From positions 1 to 64,000 of the forward strand of contig NZ_JAGDFX010000005.1 in the NCBI RefSeq assembly GCF_017498065.1: DNA of 64,000 nt. The letters run 5' to 3'. The stretch's first letter is position 1. Each line of letters opens with the position of its first letter. Below, in pieces: positions 20,973 through 56,978 of this stretch. The position numbers and the translations under genes were made by a program. Source of the stretch: Oceanisphaera pacifica (GTDB lineage: Bacteria; Pseudomonadota; Gammaproteobacteria; Enterobacterales; Aeromonadaceae). The notes under the pieces are model-generated. The model ran no database searches and had not been told where the DNA came from. It saw only the letters and a program-made list of their open reading frames with translations.

Positions 20973-21953
20973 TTAGCCACCAATGGATGCTAAATTTGGC
21001 GTCATACCTGCGTGACCTTGATGTAAAAAGTGGGTGGCTTTTTTATCAGCCAGCGCTTCTCTTAGGCGTCGCTGTAGTGCCGCTTGATCTTGATCGTCGC
21101 TGAGTAAGTCTCGTAAATCCACGCCATAATCGCCAAATAAACACAAATGTAGTTTGCCTAAGGACGACACGCGCAAGCGGTTACAACTGGCACAAAAGTC
21201 TTTGGAATAAGGCATGATCAAGCCAATTTCACCTTGATAATCAGGATGAAAAAACACTTCAGCAGGACCATCATTATGGGCTTTTACTTTTTGTGACCAA
21301 CCTTGTTGCAGCAAAATATCTTTAATTAATGCGCCGCGCACATGATGGCGTTCAAATAAGGTATCCATTTCGCCGGTTTGCATTAGCTCAATAAAGCGTA
21401 ATTGAATGGGGTTGTCTTTGATCCAAGCCAAGAAACGGTCTAAATCGCCATCATTTAAGCCACGCATTAATACCGCATTCACTTTTACCTGCTCAAAACC
21501 CGCCACAAACGCTGCATCAATTCCCGCCATCACTTCGTGAAACCGGTTTTGACCAGTAATTTGATGAAACATGCGAGGGTCTAGGCTGTCCACGCTCACA
21601 TTAATGGCGGTTAACCCGGCTTGTCGCCATTCATGGGCAAACTTTGCCATGCGATAGCCGTTGGTGGTCATGGCGACTTTTTCGATACCGGGCGTATCAG
21701 CCACAGTTTCAATAATTTGCGTAAAGTCTTTGCGTAAAGAGGGCTCGCCACCGGTAATACGCACCTTGCTGGTACCCATAGCGGCAAAGGCATGAGTGAT
21801 ACGACGAATTTCATCGAGAGTAAGAAATGTTTTTCGACCATCGGGCATATAGCCATCAGGCAGGCAGTATTGACATTTAAAGTTGCATACATCTGTGACT
21901 GACAGTCGCAGATATTGGAACTTACGCGCGAAAGCGTCTTGTAATTCAAACAT
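20973..21953 (-). CDS. moaA: GTP 3',8-cyclase (radical SAM)
   Basis: Radical SAM enzyme that converts GTP to 3',8-cyclo-GTP, the first step of molybdenum cofactor synthesis. The N-terminal SAM cluster motif is CNFKCQYC (about residues 23-30) and the second cluster motif is [11 protein letters not shown]...CLFG near residue 260. The product ends in Gly-Gly as required for activity. ATG 21953 is preferred behind GAAAGGTG; an upstream TTG would add five residues. 326 residues. Confidence 0.96.
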
Positions 21954-22075
21954 AAAACACCTTTCCAATGCGGGAGGCTACGACATTTCTCTCGCAACCC
22001 TTACAGCGCTAGGCTGAACGGTCTGACAACCTTATTGTTCTACTAACATAACAACTTAGGCTTACCCGACTCGGA
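21954..22075 (-). promoter_or_regulatory. Candidate Moco RNA element in the moaA leader
   Basis: The moaA leader on the minus strand contains GTAGCCTCCCGCATTGG followed by AAAGG just before the start, resembling the end of the molybdenum-cofactor RNA motif known upstream of moaA in gammaproteobacteria. I recall that motif only approximately and could not fold the full leader, so this is a candidate. Confidence 0.35.
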
Positions 22076-22240
22076 GTTTTTAACCAATGATATTGTTCTA
22101 TTCAGATTTAAGCTTAATAGCAATTTGCCTAAATAGATATAGTTTTAAGTAGAGAAACCTACTTAATGTGCACTGTACAGACCGAATGAAGACAACACAA
22201 TGCCTCATCCATATTGCAACAATAACCCTTAGCAAAAAGC

Positions 22241-22253
22241 GAGCAATTCGCAA
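22241..22253 (+). promoter_or_regulatory. Candidate LuxO-binding site
   Basis: GAGCAATTCGCAA matches the Vibrio LuxO consensus TTGCA-WWW-TGCAA at about ten of thirteen positions, and a half-site TTGCAA occurs 27 bases upstream. It lies about 65 bases before a sigma-54-like promoter. Consensus quoted from memory of vibrio work. Confidence 0.35.
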
Positions 22254-22315
22254 TATGACTGCACTTTTTATGACTGCTTTTTGAACGCCCTGCCGTCTAT
22301 ACTGGCTTTGCTAAG

Positions 22316-22332
22316 TTGGCACGATTATTTCA
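22316..22332 (+). promoter_or_regulatory. Candidate sigma-54 promoter
   Basis: TTGGCAC-GATTA-TTTCA: a perfect -24 element and correct spacing, but the -12 element reads TTTC instead of TTGC. It is directed at the putative small RNA 22343-22417. A weaker sigma-70 alternative (TATACT at 22298-22303 without a clear -35) is nearby. Confidence 0.4.
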
Positions 22333-22342
22333 TACAAAAAAG

Positions 22343-22417
22343 CAGTTGTTTTTATCCCGTGCTCTCTTCAGCTTTTTGCTGAAGTTCGGCCAACCCATTT
22401 GGGTTGGCCATTTTTTT
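22343..22417 (+). ncRNA. Putative small regulatory RNA beside luxU
   Basis: About 75 nt: a pyrimidine-rich unpaired 5' part containing CGTGCTCTCTTC, a hairpin TTCAGC-TTTTT-GCTGAA, and a strong intrinsic terminator GGCCAACCC-ATTT-GGGTTGGCC followed by T7. No protein gene on the plus strand could use this terminator, and the start is set by the sigma-54-like box. It lies between moaA and luxU, facing luxU. It does not contain the conserved core of vibrio Qrr RNAs as I remember it, so it is either a divergent functional analogue or a different RNA. Inferred from architecture only. Confidence 0.5.
22388..22417 (+). terminator. Intrinsic terminator of the putative sRNA
   Basis: GGCCAACCC and GGGTTGGCC, nine perfect GC-rich pairs with a four-base loop, then ATTTTTTT. 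Confidence 0.85.
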
Positions 22418-22514: not shown

Positions 22515-22886
22515 CTACTTAGTAAGTCTTTCTTTAACTGCCTCTAACGTAGCAGCTAAGGCTGTTTGCCATACACTAATCTGCAAAGTTATCACTTCCT
22601 CATCTTGTAACTGGCAAGACTCTTCTAGTTTTTCACTCACATACTGACAGCGTAAGGCTCCATAACTGCCACACGCTGACTTTAAGCTATGGCAGTGTGC
22701 CGCCATACCCATAAAGTCACTCTGTTGATAAGCCTGTTGTAAACGATCATCCAACTGCTGACTGTCTTCAATAAACAAACGAAGCAACCGCTCTATCACT
22801 ACCGTTCCTAATGTTTGATCCATACGCTGTAACTGATACTCATCTAACACAGGTAACTGCGCTTGCAATACCTGCCAGTTAATCAT
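22515..22886 (-). CDS. luxU: Histidine phosphotransfer protein (LuxU-like)
   Basis: 123-residue all-helical Hpt protein with the phospho-accepting His66 in CHSLKSACGSYGA, the canonical H-x-LK-x6-G pattern. It would carry phosphate from quorum-sensing hybrid kinases to LuxO. The gene overlaps the 3' end of luxO by eight bases, reproducing the luxO-luxU arrangement of vibrios. No sensor kinase is encoded in this window. Confidence 0.8.
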   Translation of the reverse strand: MINWQVLQAQLPVLDEYQLQRMDQTLGTVVIERLLRLFIEDSQQLDDRLQQAYQQSDFMGMAAHCHSLKSACGSYGALRCQYVSEKLEESCQLQDEEVITLQISVWQTALAATLEAVKERLTK

Positions 22887-24258
22887 GAGAGAGTTCCCAG
22901 CTTTGTAATTTTCTATAAATAGTAGAAGGACTCACTTCCAGTAAAGCTGCCGCTCGCGAGACGTTACCTTGGCAATGCCCAATGGCCCTTTCTATCGCTT
23001 GGCGCTCTAATACAGCAAGTGGCACTATGGGCGTTGGCAAGGCATCAGCGACCACTTCATAAGATGCAGCTCCGCTTAATGGTTGATCCAGTGGTGCAGG
23101 TAACATATCGAGTTCAATCCACTCACCTTGATGCAATACTACGGCATTGCGGATCACGTTTTGCAGTTGTCGCACATTGCCCGGCCAGTGATAGGCTTGC
23201 AAACGATCTTTAGTGGCCTCAGATAAACCAACAAAAGATTTACCTTCTTCGCGCGATGCTTGGCGAACCAAGGCGGTGGCAATGCTAATGACATCTCCAC
23301 CACGCTCGCGTAATGGGGGGAGGTTAATAGGGATCACATGCAGGCGGTAATACAAGTCTTCACGAAACCGCCCTTGCTCTACTTCTAGTAAGGGATCGCG
23401 GTTAGTCGCACACACAATGCGCACATTGACTGTTACTTGTTGAGAGCTGCCCACAGGCTGTATTTGCCCACTTTGTAAAAAGCGCAGTAGCTTACTTTGC
23501 AGCTCAAGATCCATTTCGCAGATCTCATCCATAAAGAGCGTGCCGCCATTAGCGCGTGTCACGGCGCCTTCTCGATCTTGTAATGCACCGGTAAAAGCGC
23601 CTTTAATATGGCCGAACAGCTCACTTTCCATTAGCTCTTTTGGAATGGCTGCACAATTAAGAGCAATAAAAGGGCCATCATTCACCCCACTGAGCTGATG
23701 TATGGCTTCGGCGCACACTTCTTTACCGGTACCACTTTCGCCGGTAATCAATACTGTTGCACTACTTGGTGCCGCATTTTCAATCAGTCGATATACTTTT
23801 TGCATCGGCAAGCTGGTGCCAATAAAGCCTTGAAACGGTTCCTTTTCAATATCATGTCGATAACGATCAACCAGCTGATTTAGACGTCGAAATTTCATGG
23901 TATTGTGTAACGTAACTTTTAAGCGCTCAACTTCTATCGGCTTGTTAATAAAATCGTGTGCTCCCAAGCGCATTGCATCTACGGCTACATCTATAGAGCC
24001 ATGGGCGGTGATCACTATGGTGGTGATATTAGGATGCTCATCATGTAGCCACTGCAGAATGTCCATGCCTGGCATATCTGGTAGCATTAAGTCGAGTAGT
24101 AAAATATCTGGCGGTTGTTGTCGAATATGTTCAAGCGCTTCTTGGCCATTACTCACTACTGTTAATAACAATGGTTCATCTTGAAGATAAGCCTGGTAGA
24201 GGGCTGCCAAAGAAGCAGTATCTTCTACCAATAAGACATTTAGTCTCTCATCACTCAT
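22879..24258 (-). CDS. luxO: Sigma-54-dependent response regulator LuxO
   Basis: 459 residues in three domains: receiver (about 1-125, phospho-acceptor Asp56 in DILLLDLMLPDMPG), AAA+ activator (about 145-380; Walker A GESGTGKE, the sigma-54 contact GAFTGA, Walker B GGTLFMDEICEMD, and WPGNVRQLQNV), and a Fis-type HTH at the end (GNVSRAAALLEVSPSTIYRKL). In vibrios phospho-LuxO activates Qrr small RNAs with sigma-54. The adjoining Hpt gene supports LuxO over a generic NtrC-type regulator. A sigma-54-like promoter and sRNA candidate lie just past luxU. Confidence 0.87.
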   Translation of the reverse strand: MSDERLNVLLVEDTASLAALYQAYLQDEPLLLTVVSNGQEALEHIRQQPPDILLLDLMLPDMPGMDILQWLHDEHPNITTIVITAHGSIDVAVDAMRLGAHDFINKPIEVERLKVTLHNTMKFRRLNQLVDRYRHDIEKEPFQGFIGTSLPMQKVYRLIENAAPSSATVLITGESGTGKEVCAEAIHQLSGVNDGPFIALNCAAIPKELMESELFGHIKGAFTGALQDREGAVTRANGGTLFMDEICEMDLELQSKLLRFLQSGQIQPVGSSQQVTVNVRIVCATNRDPLLEVEQGRFREDLYYRLHVIPINLPPLRERGGDVISIATALVRQASREEGKSFVGLSEATKDRLQAYHWPGNVRQLQNVIRNAVVLHQGEWIELDMLPAPLDQPLSGAASYEVVADALPTPIVPLAVLERQAIERAIGHCQGNVSRAAALLEVSPSTIYRKLQSWELSHD

Positions 24259-26232: not shown

Positions 26233-26319
26233 TGGTGCCCGGAGCCGGAATTGAACCGGCACGCCCTTGCGAGCGAGGGATTTTAAATCCCTTGTGTCTA
26301 CCGATTTCACCATCCGGGC
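26233..26319 (-). tRNA. tRNA-Leu (TAA), second copy
   Basis: Identical 87-nt sequence to 705-791: acceptor GCCCGGA/TCCGGGC, anticodon TAA, CCA encoded. Confidence 0.95.
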
Positions 26320-26335
26320 AGACAACTTTTTACAC

Positions 26336-26409
26336 TGGAGGCGCGTTCCGGAGTCGAACCGGACTAAACGGATTTGCAATCCGCTGCATAGCCGCTTTGC
26401 TAACGCGCC
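26336..26409 (-). tRNA. tRNA-Cys (GCA), second copy
   Basis: Identical 74-nt sequence to 810-883. The spacer to tRNA-Leu differs in sequence from the first array, so identity is confined to the tRNAs and the terminator arms. Confidence 0.95.
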
Positions 26410-26429
26410 TAACAATATATTACTAAATT

Positions 26430-26505
26430 TGGAGCGGGAAACGAGATTCGAACTCGCGACCCCAACCTTGGCAAGGTTGTGCTCTACCAGCTGAGCTATT
26501 CCCGC
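26430..26505 (-). tRNA. tRNA-Gly (GCC)
   Basis: 76-nt cloverleaf with acceptor GCGGGAA/TTCCCGC, anticodon loop TTGCCAA and encoded CCA. First gene of the Gly-Cys-Leu array, the order seen after pgsA in E. coli. Confidence 0.95.
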
Positions 26506-56279: not shown

Positions 56280-56978
56280 ATGATTGAATTAAGACCCTAT
56301 CGCGAATTGGGCGGCGCGCAGCATGGCTGGCTAGATACTCGCCACCATTTTTCATTTGCCGATTATTACCACCCCCAGCGTATGGGTTGGGGGCAGCTAA
56401 GAGTGTGGAACGATGACACTATTGCTGCACATTCAGGTTTTCCGCCGCACCCTCATCGCGATATGGAAATTATCACTTACGTGCGCAAGGGGGCTATCAC
56501 GCATCAAGACAACTTGGGCAATAGCGGCCGCACTGCCGCTGGTAATGTGCAGGTGATGAGTGCTGGCACCGGCATTGCTCATAGTGAGATGAATACCGAA
56601 AATGAGACCTCGCAGATCTTTCAAATATGGATTATGCCCAACGAAAAAGGCTTGCCACCCAAATGGGGCACCAAGCCTTTTCCCAAAGGGGAGCTAAGTG
56701 GTGACTTTGTTACCCTTGCCAGTGGTTTCGCTATTGATACCGAGGCGCTACCCATTCGTGCCGACGCCCGCTTGGTAGCAGCAACCCTAAAAACGGGACA
56801 AAGTACTCGCTACTCGCTTGCTAAAGGGCGCAAAGCATATCTTGTTCCGGCCAGTGGTCAGATTGAAATTAACGGCGTACTCGTCACTGCCGGCGATGGC
56901 GTTGCCATTCATGACGAGCCGTTATTGCACGTTATTGCACAACAAGACAGCGAAATTGTACTGGTAGAGGTGGCATAA
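56280..56978 (+). CDS. Pirin-family protein (YhhW-like)
   Basis: 232-residue bicupin. Metal ligands [13 protein letters not shown] (two His) and GIAHSEMN (His and Glu) are intact in the N-terminal cupin. YhhW and human pirin oxidise quercetin, so a flavonoid or quinol dioxygenase activity is plausible. AGGAGG lies upstream of the ATG. It belongs to the quinone-detoxification cluster, 41 bases after the oxidoreductase gene. Confidence 0.92.

Follow-up and report, generated by a model that had tools for sequence, protein, structure and literature searches.

A conserved small RNA gene next to luxU-luxO in Oceanisphaera pacifica, probably controlled by LuxO and sigma-54

The locus between moaA and luxU

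The window analysed here, the whole stretch of DNA under study, is 64 kb of Oceanisphaera pacifica contig NZ_JAGDFX010000005.1 (positions 1-64,000), and all coordinates are positions within it. Its minus strand carries a luxO-like gene for a sigma-54 activator (22879..24258), the product of which has a receiver domain, an AAA+ domain with the GAFTGA motif and a Fis helix-turn-helix, and a luxU-like gene (22515..22886) for an HPt phosphotransfer protein with the motif HSLKS (Pfam Hpt, 7e-11). On the same strand a Moco riboswitch (21942-22088; RF01055, 78 bits) stands ahead of moaA; the moa and yvcK genes mentioned here and below were named by reading. Against the NCBIfam LuxO model NF041946, which is named for Vibrio, the LuxO-like protein scores 652 bits, short of the cut-off of 800, with the next model at 399. 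Its domains (receiver, sigma-54 AAA+ and Fis), the adjoining luxU and the nearby moa genes are all those expected of LuxO. The luxU-like protein has no match to the NCBIfam LuxU model, and the homologues at two related loci, L148 and L206, match it at only 40.9 and 55.9 bits, the cut-off being 140.

Between the riboswitch and luxU, both on the minus strand, a plus-strand unit is found. A sigma-54-type promoter, TTGGCAC-N5-TTTC (-24/-12), at 22316-22331 is followed by a predicted sRNA of 75 nt at 22343..22417, the start being placed from sigma-54 spacing and the RNA being supported by its fold and by its retention in relatives. Towards its 5' end the RNA has an invariant unpaired segment, UUUAUCCCGUGC (UCUCUUC), the presumed pairing seed being TTTATCCCGTGC at 22351..22362; one hairpin of 7 bp (hairpin 1, 22366-22384) comes next and then an intrinsic terminator (22388..22417), in which 22388-22396 pair with 22401-22409 in a 9-bp stem and the T7 run lies at 22411-22417. 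The T-run is present on the plus strand only. Compared with 200 shuffles, the folding energy of the 75 nt, -29.3 kcal/mol, has a z of -6.5. The sRNA is single copy in the genome. Upstream on the plus strand are two LuxO-box-like sites, a distal one, ATCCATATTGCAA, at 22207..22219 (about -103 from the -24 element; 8/10 of TTGCAN3TGCAA) and a degenerate proximal one, TCGCAATATGACT, at 22248..22260 (about -62; 6/10).

An earlier note on this DNA had read 22241..22417 as a sigma-54-driven RNA of about 75 nt with a hairpin, a nine-pair terminator and a T7 run, in a gap free of plus-strand genes. On rereading the sequence its coordinates were all correct and every element of the RNA was found as described, and the window's list of open reading frames holds no plus-strand frame of at least 70 aa there. 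Elsewhere in the window, two tRNA clusters (708-883 and 26236-26505) seemingly contain the same two tRNAs (scores 58.8 and 55.5 in both), a possible duplication.

Conservation and covariation of the RNA

A DNA search of 61 relatives, 37 of them Aeromonadaceae, gave strong matches (E <=1e-8) to the sRNA in 34 of the 37: 22/23 genomes of the window's genus (g1), 4/5 of genus g3, all five of g4, all three of g5 and 0/1 of g2. A near-identical A. caviae sequence suggests that genus g4 is Aeromonas. In the 21 other matches of the window's genus the conserved block starts at 22293-22313, just before the -24 element, and stops at the terminator. The three Aeromonadaceae genomes without a clear match differ from one another. 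One (G011) keeps moaA-luxU-luxO, but the luxU-moaA gap, which houses the Moco riboswitch in the window, is shortened to ~206 bp and the sRNA is lost; another (G035) is an 87% complete genome that has LuxO; the third (G023) has neither a clear sRNA match nor a close LuxO.

An alignment (A1) was built from 31 of the 34 family loci, L006, L009 and L019 being left out. The seed TTTATCCCGTGC is invariant in all 31 sequences and in all 19 of a second alignment (A2). The two helices are paired in 99.4% of the cells of A1, hairpin 1 in 100%. Double-sided changes occur at 4 pairs and in 25 cells, against shuffle means of 2.0 and 7.2; these shuffles ignore kinship, and 7 of 500 reached the first figure and none of 500 the second. 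One of the changed pairs lies in hairpin 1 and three are compensatory changes in the terminator stem. Further pair types are about as numerous as in the shuffles, 9 to 8.4. The earlier note had put forward, as a test of its reading, hairpins conserved with co-varying bases beside luxU: both stems have compensatory changes, and 22 loci of the window's genus adjoin luxOU.

A covariance model (R1) run over 394 order genomes (cut-off E <=0.01) matched 53, comprising 34 Aeromonadaceae (f1), eight genomes of a Succinivibrionaceae-type family (f3), which carry the sRNA, and 11 others; no Aeromonadaceae genome is among the non-matching genomes listed. The weak matches in six of those 11 genomes (L198-L201, L203 and L208) proved to be terminator look-alikes with no seed and no promoter, and those in the other five (G187, G235, G253, G283 and G285) were left unread. 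At the eight f3 loci (L191-L197 and L202) the terminator sequence has been replaced with hairpin and T-run kept, yet TTTATCCCGTG is retained. Hairpin 1 is altered in L194 and L202 and replaced in L195-L197, and despite this the last three keep the first 11 bases of TTTATCCCGTGC. Retention of the seed amid a replaced hairpin and terminator is the pattern to be expected of a pairing seed under selection. The same three loci, from one f3 genus, have the seed TTTTATCCCGTG together with a canonical -12 TTGC, and would be useful for parting seed from structure.

Mobile spread was also considered. The exact 21-mer is absent from viral contigs, there was no phage match, and the plasmid records yielded a single entry, NZ_AP026896.1, which is evidently a chromosome. 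This 4.94-Mb A. caviae record, labelled 'plasmid pKAM479_3' (L326-L332), carries a LuxO homologue, LitR and the sRNA. Judged by sequence, the feature is real, a conserved sRNA gene.

Promoter, LuxO boxes and genomic company

The sigma-54 element of the earlier note, with its perfect -24 and a TTTC -12, is there, but the window alone gives such a promoter no significance above chance. An exact TTGGCACN5TTTC occurs once in the 64 kb, and with up to two mismatches there are 27 against 24.1 expected; TGGCACN5TTGC within one mismatch has 10 sites against 7.7 expected. The significance of the promoter, as of the LuxO box, comes from conservation in relatives and not from the window by itself. From 63 loci supplied, 58 distinct upstream regions were kept after dropping duplicates and regions that lacked TGGCA or were too short. 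Among these the -24 reads TGGCAC in 51 and TGGCAT in seven, and the -12 reads TTTC in 51 (the window included), TTGC in four, TTCC in two and ATGC in one. An exact sigma-54 consensus, TGGCACN5TTGC, also lies at 56564-56578 on the plus strand, possibly by chance.

All 5-mer palindromes with spacers of 0-8 were counted in the 58 regions with no motif given beforehand. The top palindrome was TTGCA-N3-TGCAA, which we take to be the LuxO binding site consensus, in 25 of the 58; the next reached 7, 7, 6 and 6, one of the two with 7 being the related TCGCA-N3-TGCGA. The best palindrome of any kind in 60 shuffles, in which kinship was uncontrolled, reached at most 4. Perfect boxes are found in 7/8 regions of f3 and 4/4 of g3, where luxO is elsewhere in the genome, and in 3/3 of g5, 11/21 of g4 and 0/22 of the window's own genus. 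A scan with this consensus gave a summed best score of 297 over 34 loci, against 240.6 +/- 4.1 in 200 shuffles (maximum 249).

In the window's genus the boxes are imperfect. Their scores sum to 168 at -62 (shuffles 98.1, maximum 114) and to 160 at -103 (shuffles 97.6, maximum 112), the positions having been picked after seeing the data and the shuffles ignoring relatedness. For the window and its nearest matches (L001-L006) the sum at each of the same post hoc positions is 40, where shuffles give 26.4 at -62 (maximum 34) and 27.0 at -103 (maximum 35), and their best score anywhere, 44, falls within the shuffles (41.7, maximum 47). The distal place scores 9/10 in, for example, L009, L015 and L016, and the proximal place reads TTGCACTTTGCAT in L009, TTGCATTATGCAT in L016 and TTGCATTACGCAA in L008. 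In the window itself the best LuxO-like 13-mer, 8/10, is equalled by 29% of shuffles, and the palindrome about 65 bases upstream to which the earlier note pointed is, at 6/10, at chance level when taken alone. LuxO sites upstream, a mark of Qrr-type RNAs, are found in the family; those of the window's genus are imperfect, and the window's own copy has them in degenerate form. As only imperfect boxes occur in this genus, LuxO control is less sure in the window's strain than in its kin. Two genus members (G003 and G006; L277 and L278) have a further LuxO-like activator that branches more deeply, and near it a 9/10 LuxO-box-like site lies upstream of a sigma-54-like element.

Of the 394 order genomes, 123 have a LuxO homologue (E <=1e-115). 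Among the 42 with a credible sRNA, 41 have one and the forty-second (G025) has a partial match. Two f3 genomes (G120 and G377) have LuxO and no R1 match. In a tree of 43 LuxO-like proteins, which has a weak backbone and some long branches, the window's protein groups with the sRNA-linked LuxO of g5 and with that of f3 (support 90/90); the second LuxO of g3, g4 and g5 (96/95) and the Vibrio proteins lie outside this group.

The sRNA is convergent with an adjoining luxU-luxO at all 22 sRNA loci of the window's genus (L001-L021 and L023). The pair adjoins it at two of the three g5 loci and at none of the g3, g4 and f3 loci read. At those two g5 loci, L148 and L149, the sRNA has a hybrid kinase and a NosP-like FIST protein for neighbours as well as luxO and a luxU-like gene, with yvcK inserted in L149; at the third, L147, the HPt alone is retained. 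At the five g4 loci read (L122 and L204-L207) the neighbours are a kinase, a FIST protein, yvcK and an HPt, and LuxO is elsewhere. The NosP and NahK NCBIfam models were matched below cut-off, the best NCBIfam model for the kinase being TorS, and no FIST domain was found in the window's genome. In two g3 loci (L124 and L126) the sRNA is flanked by folE on one side and an exonuclease-type gene on the other, and uvrB is two genes off. The order at Vibrio-type loci (L259 and L261) is uvrB-qrr1-luxO-luxU-yvcK-moaA, and with uvrB near the sRNA in the two g3 loci the neighbourhoods look related.

Relation to Qrr and possible role

In Vibrionaceae LuxO acts through the Qrr RNAs (PMC8043402). Like these, the sRNA has LuxO boxes, a sigma-54 -24 in the context AAAGTTGGCACG, hairpins with an intrinsic terminator and, in the case of qrr1, a place beside luxO. 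The -24/-12 promoter of Qrr (RF00378) has its counterpart here, with a -24 like that of Vibrio-type qrr and a -12 that in the sRNA family is usually TTTC; five of six Vibrio-type qrr genes read have the promoter context AAAGTTGGCACG. At Vibrio-type qrr1 the box TTGCATTATGCAA lies at -70 in two of the three loci scanned, and the third (L261) has no match to the promoter pattern, yet TTGCATTTTGCAA occurs upstream of its qrr1.

The RNA body differs. The sRNA is ~75 nt against 108 model positions, is single copy in the window's genome, and has an unrelated invariant seed, no Qrr core and no Rfam match over cut-off; within the window nothing in the sRNA reached a gathering score, the best being a weak match to RF02278 (24 of 50 bits). 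The Qrr core GCCAACTGACGTTG, present in the six Qrr sequences read, is absent from the sRNA alignments, and the sRNA seed is absent from those Qrr sequences. The earlier note had called for a search with the Qrr covariance model. Run on 30 Aeromonadaceae genomes, the model stayed below its cut-off of 50 bits in every one, with a best score of 24, and the matches listed include none at the sRNA locus. In a positive control on 197 order genomes it passed the cut-off in 11, every one of them in genus g26, and scored weakly (35 and 34 of 50 bits) in two others; g26, the only one of 79 genera sampled with Qrr over cut-off, is evidently Vibrio. Other sRNAs, of the CrcZ and GlmY type, likewise have a sigma-54 promoter with upstream activator sites. 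Their activators, lengths and modes of action are other than those of a LuxO-linked sRNA, and no Rfam match over cut-off ties the sRNA to them.

The structure and conservation of the RNA, the promoter, the LuxO boxes in the family and the co-occurrence with LuxO were computed directly, and they suggest that the sRNA is probably a trans-acting, base-pairing output of the LuxU-LuxO phosphorelay, made through phospho-LuxO and sigma-54. The central proposal of the earlier note, an RNA output of LuxOU unlike Qrr, has the support of the conserved block, the compensatory changes, the family's boxes, the canonical -12 TTGC in four of the 58 regions, the presence of LuxO and the lack of Qrr matches over cut-off in the 30 genomes. 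On the comparisons made, the RNA would work like Qrr but outside the Qrr family, probably under LuxO and sigma-54.

An unlikely alternative is that the sRNA is a true Qrr orthologue, identical as to gene, promoter and locus, whose RNA has diverged past recognition. The AAAGTTGGCACG context common to most Vibrio-type qrr genes, the shared box and the related neighbourhood around uvrB would fit this, but the Qrr model falls well short of its cut-off throughout the 30 genomes, its listed matches avoid the sRNA locus, and in the sequences read core and seed are not shared in either direction. It is somewhat harder to believe that a real sigma-54 sRNA answers mainly to another enhancer-binding protein (NorR, NtrC or GlrR, for example) and is next to luxO incidentally. 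Several sigma-54 activators do occur in the 15 relatives searched, the sRNA is away from luxO at the g3, g4 and f3 loci read, and the window's genus has no perfect box; against this, TTGCA-N3-TGCAA leads all palindromes by 25 to 7, it persists where luxO is elsewhere, and two Vibrio-type qrr1 genes have the same box.

It seems very improbable that there is no sRNA here and that the feature is instead a small-peptide leader or, at the 3' end of luxOU, an attenuator or bidirectional terminator. The sRNA does lie downstream of luxU and convergent with it, a 68-aa frame crosses it in L215, and in 26 of 35 sequences one frame runs through the RNA without a stop. The T-run on one strand only, the conservation of promoter and boxes along with the RNA, and the persistence of the sRNA without an adjoining luxU all speak against it, as do the lengths from seed to T-run, which vary from 56 to 62 nt in all three phases, and the lack of an ATG in 31 of the 35.

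Control by LuxO could then proceed as follows. Sensor kinases would pass phosphate through LuxU to LuxO, as at low cell density in vibrios, and the absence of nitric oxide may be a further input where a NosP-like protein occurs together with its kinase. Phospho-LuxO would bind one to three TTGCA-N3-TGCAA boxes some 60-190 bp upstream and drive sigma-54 polymerase at the -24/-12 element. The resulting RNA of ~75 nt would end at the strong terminator, its U-tail would load Hfq, and the unpaired UUUAUCCCGUGC would pair with mRNAs, most likely over ribosome-binding sites. We infer transcription, dependence on LuxO, the part of Hfq, the mode of pairing and any target from the sequence features set out above.

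Several candidate targets were tried. The earlier note had suggested nhaD from an eight-base match over its ribosome-binding site; the pairing energy, -15.5 kcal/mol, is unexceptional and does not place nhaD among the 15 best of the window's ORFs, which leaves it unsupported as a target. Pairing with luxO (mean z -0.28 over 14 loci) and with A. caviae litR (z -0.35, one genome) is at chance, so that on duplex energies the sRNA does not display the pairing of Qrr with luxR/hapR/litR or luxO mRNA. None of nine TetR-type proteins in the window's genome matches NCBIfam HapR at 1e-10; A. caviae LitR, as control, does so at 8e-42 and would be caught by the TetR_N model used. The sRNA therefore probably acts without a HapR-type regulator in this genome. 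With one mismatch allowed, GAGCACGGGATAA has 63 matches in 15 genomes, 15 of them the sRNA itself, against 25 for the reversed control (50 of the 63 were read). CACGGGATAA-N0-12-ATG gave 39 matches in 30 genomes, one being the sRNA itself, against 7 for the reversed control; as a uniform-base estimate is ~40 and the control differs in composition, no enrichment is claimed. Among the 29 of these 39 that were read, seed matches before starts recur only in pairs, before a galE-like gene in 2/9 g4 genomes (G028 and G323) and an AsmA-like gene in 2/11 g1 genomes (G000 and G005), both named by reading and too few to claim as targets.

If the proposed LuxO output is correct, one regulator and its promoter keep their role while the RNA that they drive is a different one. 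A wider proposal, about as likely as not, is that in Aeromonadales (Aeromonadaceae and Succinivibrionaceae) the LuxU-LuxO relay has as its ancestral RNA output a conserved family of LuxO-driven sRNAs distinct from Qrr. With a seed and a regulon unlike those of Qrr, this family would bring quorum and nitric-oxide signals to bear on post-transcriptional control, and HapR/LitR would be dispensable. NosP-VpsS-LuxU-LuxO is the nitric-oxide branch of Vibrio quorum sensing (PMC6769237). The likeness lies in the hybrid kinase, NosP-like FIST protein, LuxU-like HPt and LuxO of L148 and L149 and in the kinase, FIST protein and HPt of the five g4 loci, and the difference in the non-Qrr RNA of these loci and the lone HPt of L147.

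The connection among the luxQ/luxU/luxO/litR genes of Aeromonas has 'so far only genetic' proof (PMC5247445, PMC7512022). Among the matches listed in open-licence PMC (titles and abstract starts) none describes a LuxO-controlled RNA in Aeromonas; a prior description is possible in subscription literature. The conserved RNA beside the luxU cluster of Aeromonas, with its apparent control by LuxO, is a concrete candidate for the missing step of the pathway. In A. hydrophila HX-3 the tags of luxQ and luxU are 14630 and 14645 (PMC7512022), a spacing equal to that in the sRNA loci, and HX-3 'LuxQ' is probably the FIST-associated kinase. More generally, the Aeromonas 'LuxQ' is probably the FIST/NosP-associated hybrid kinase found beside the sRNA in L122 and L204-L207, which hints at nitric-oxide input rather than AI-2.
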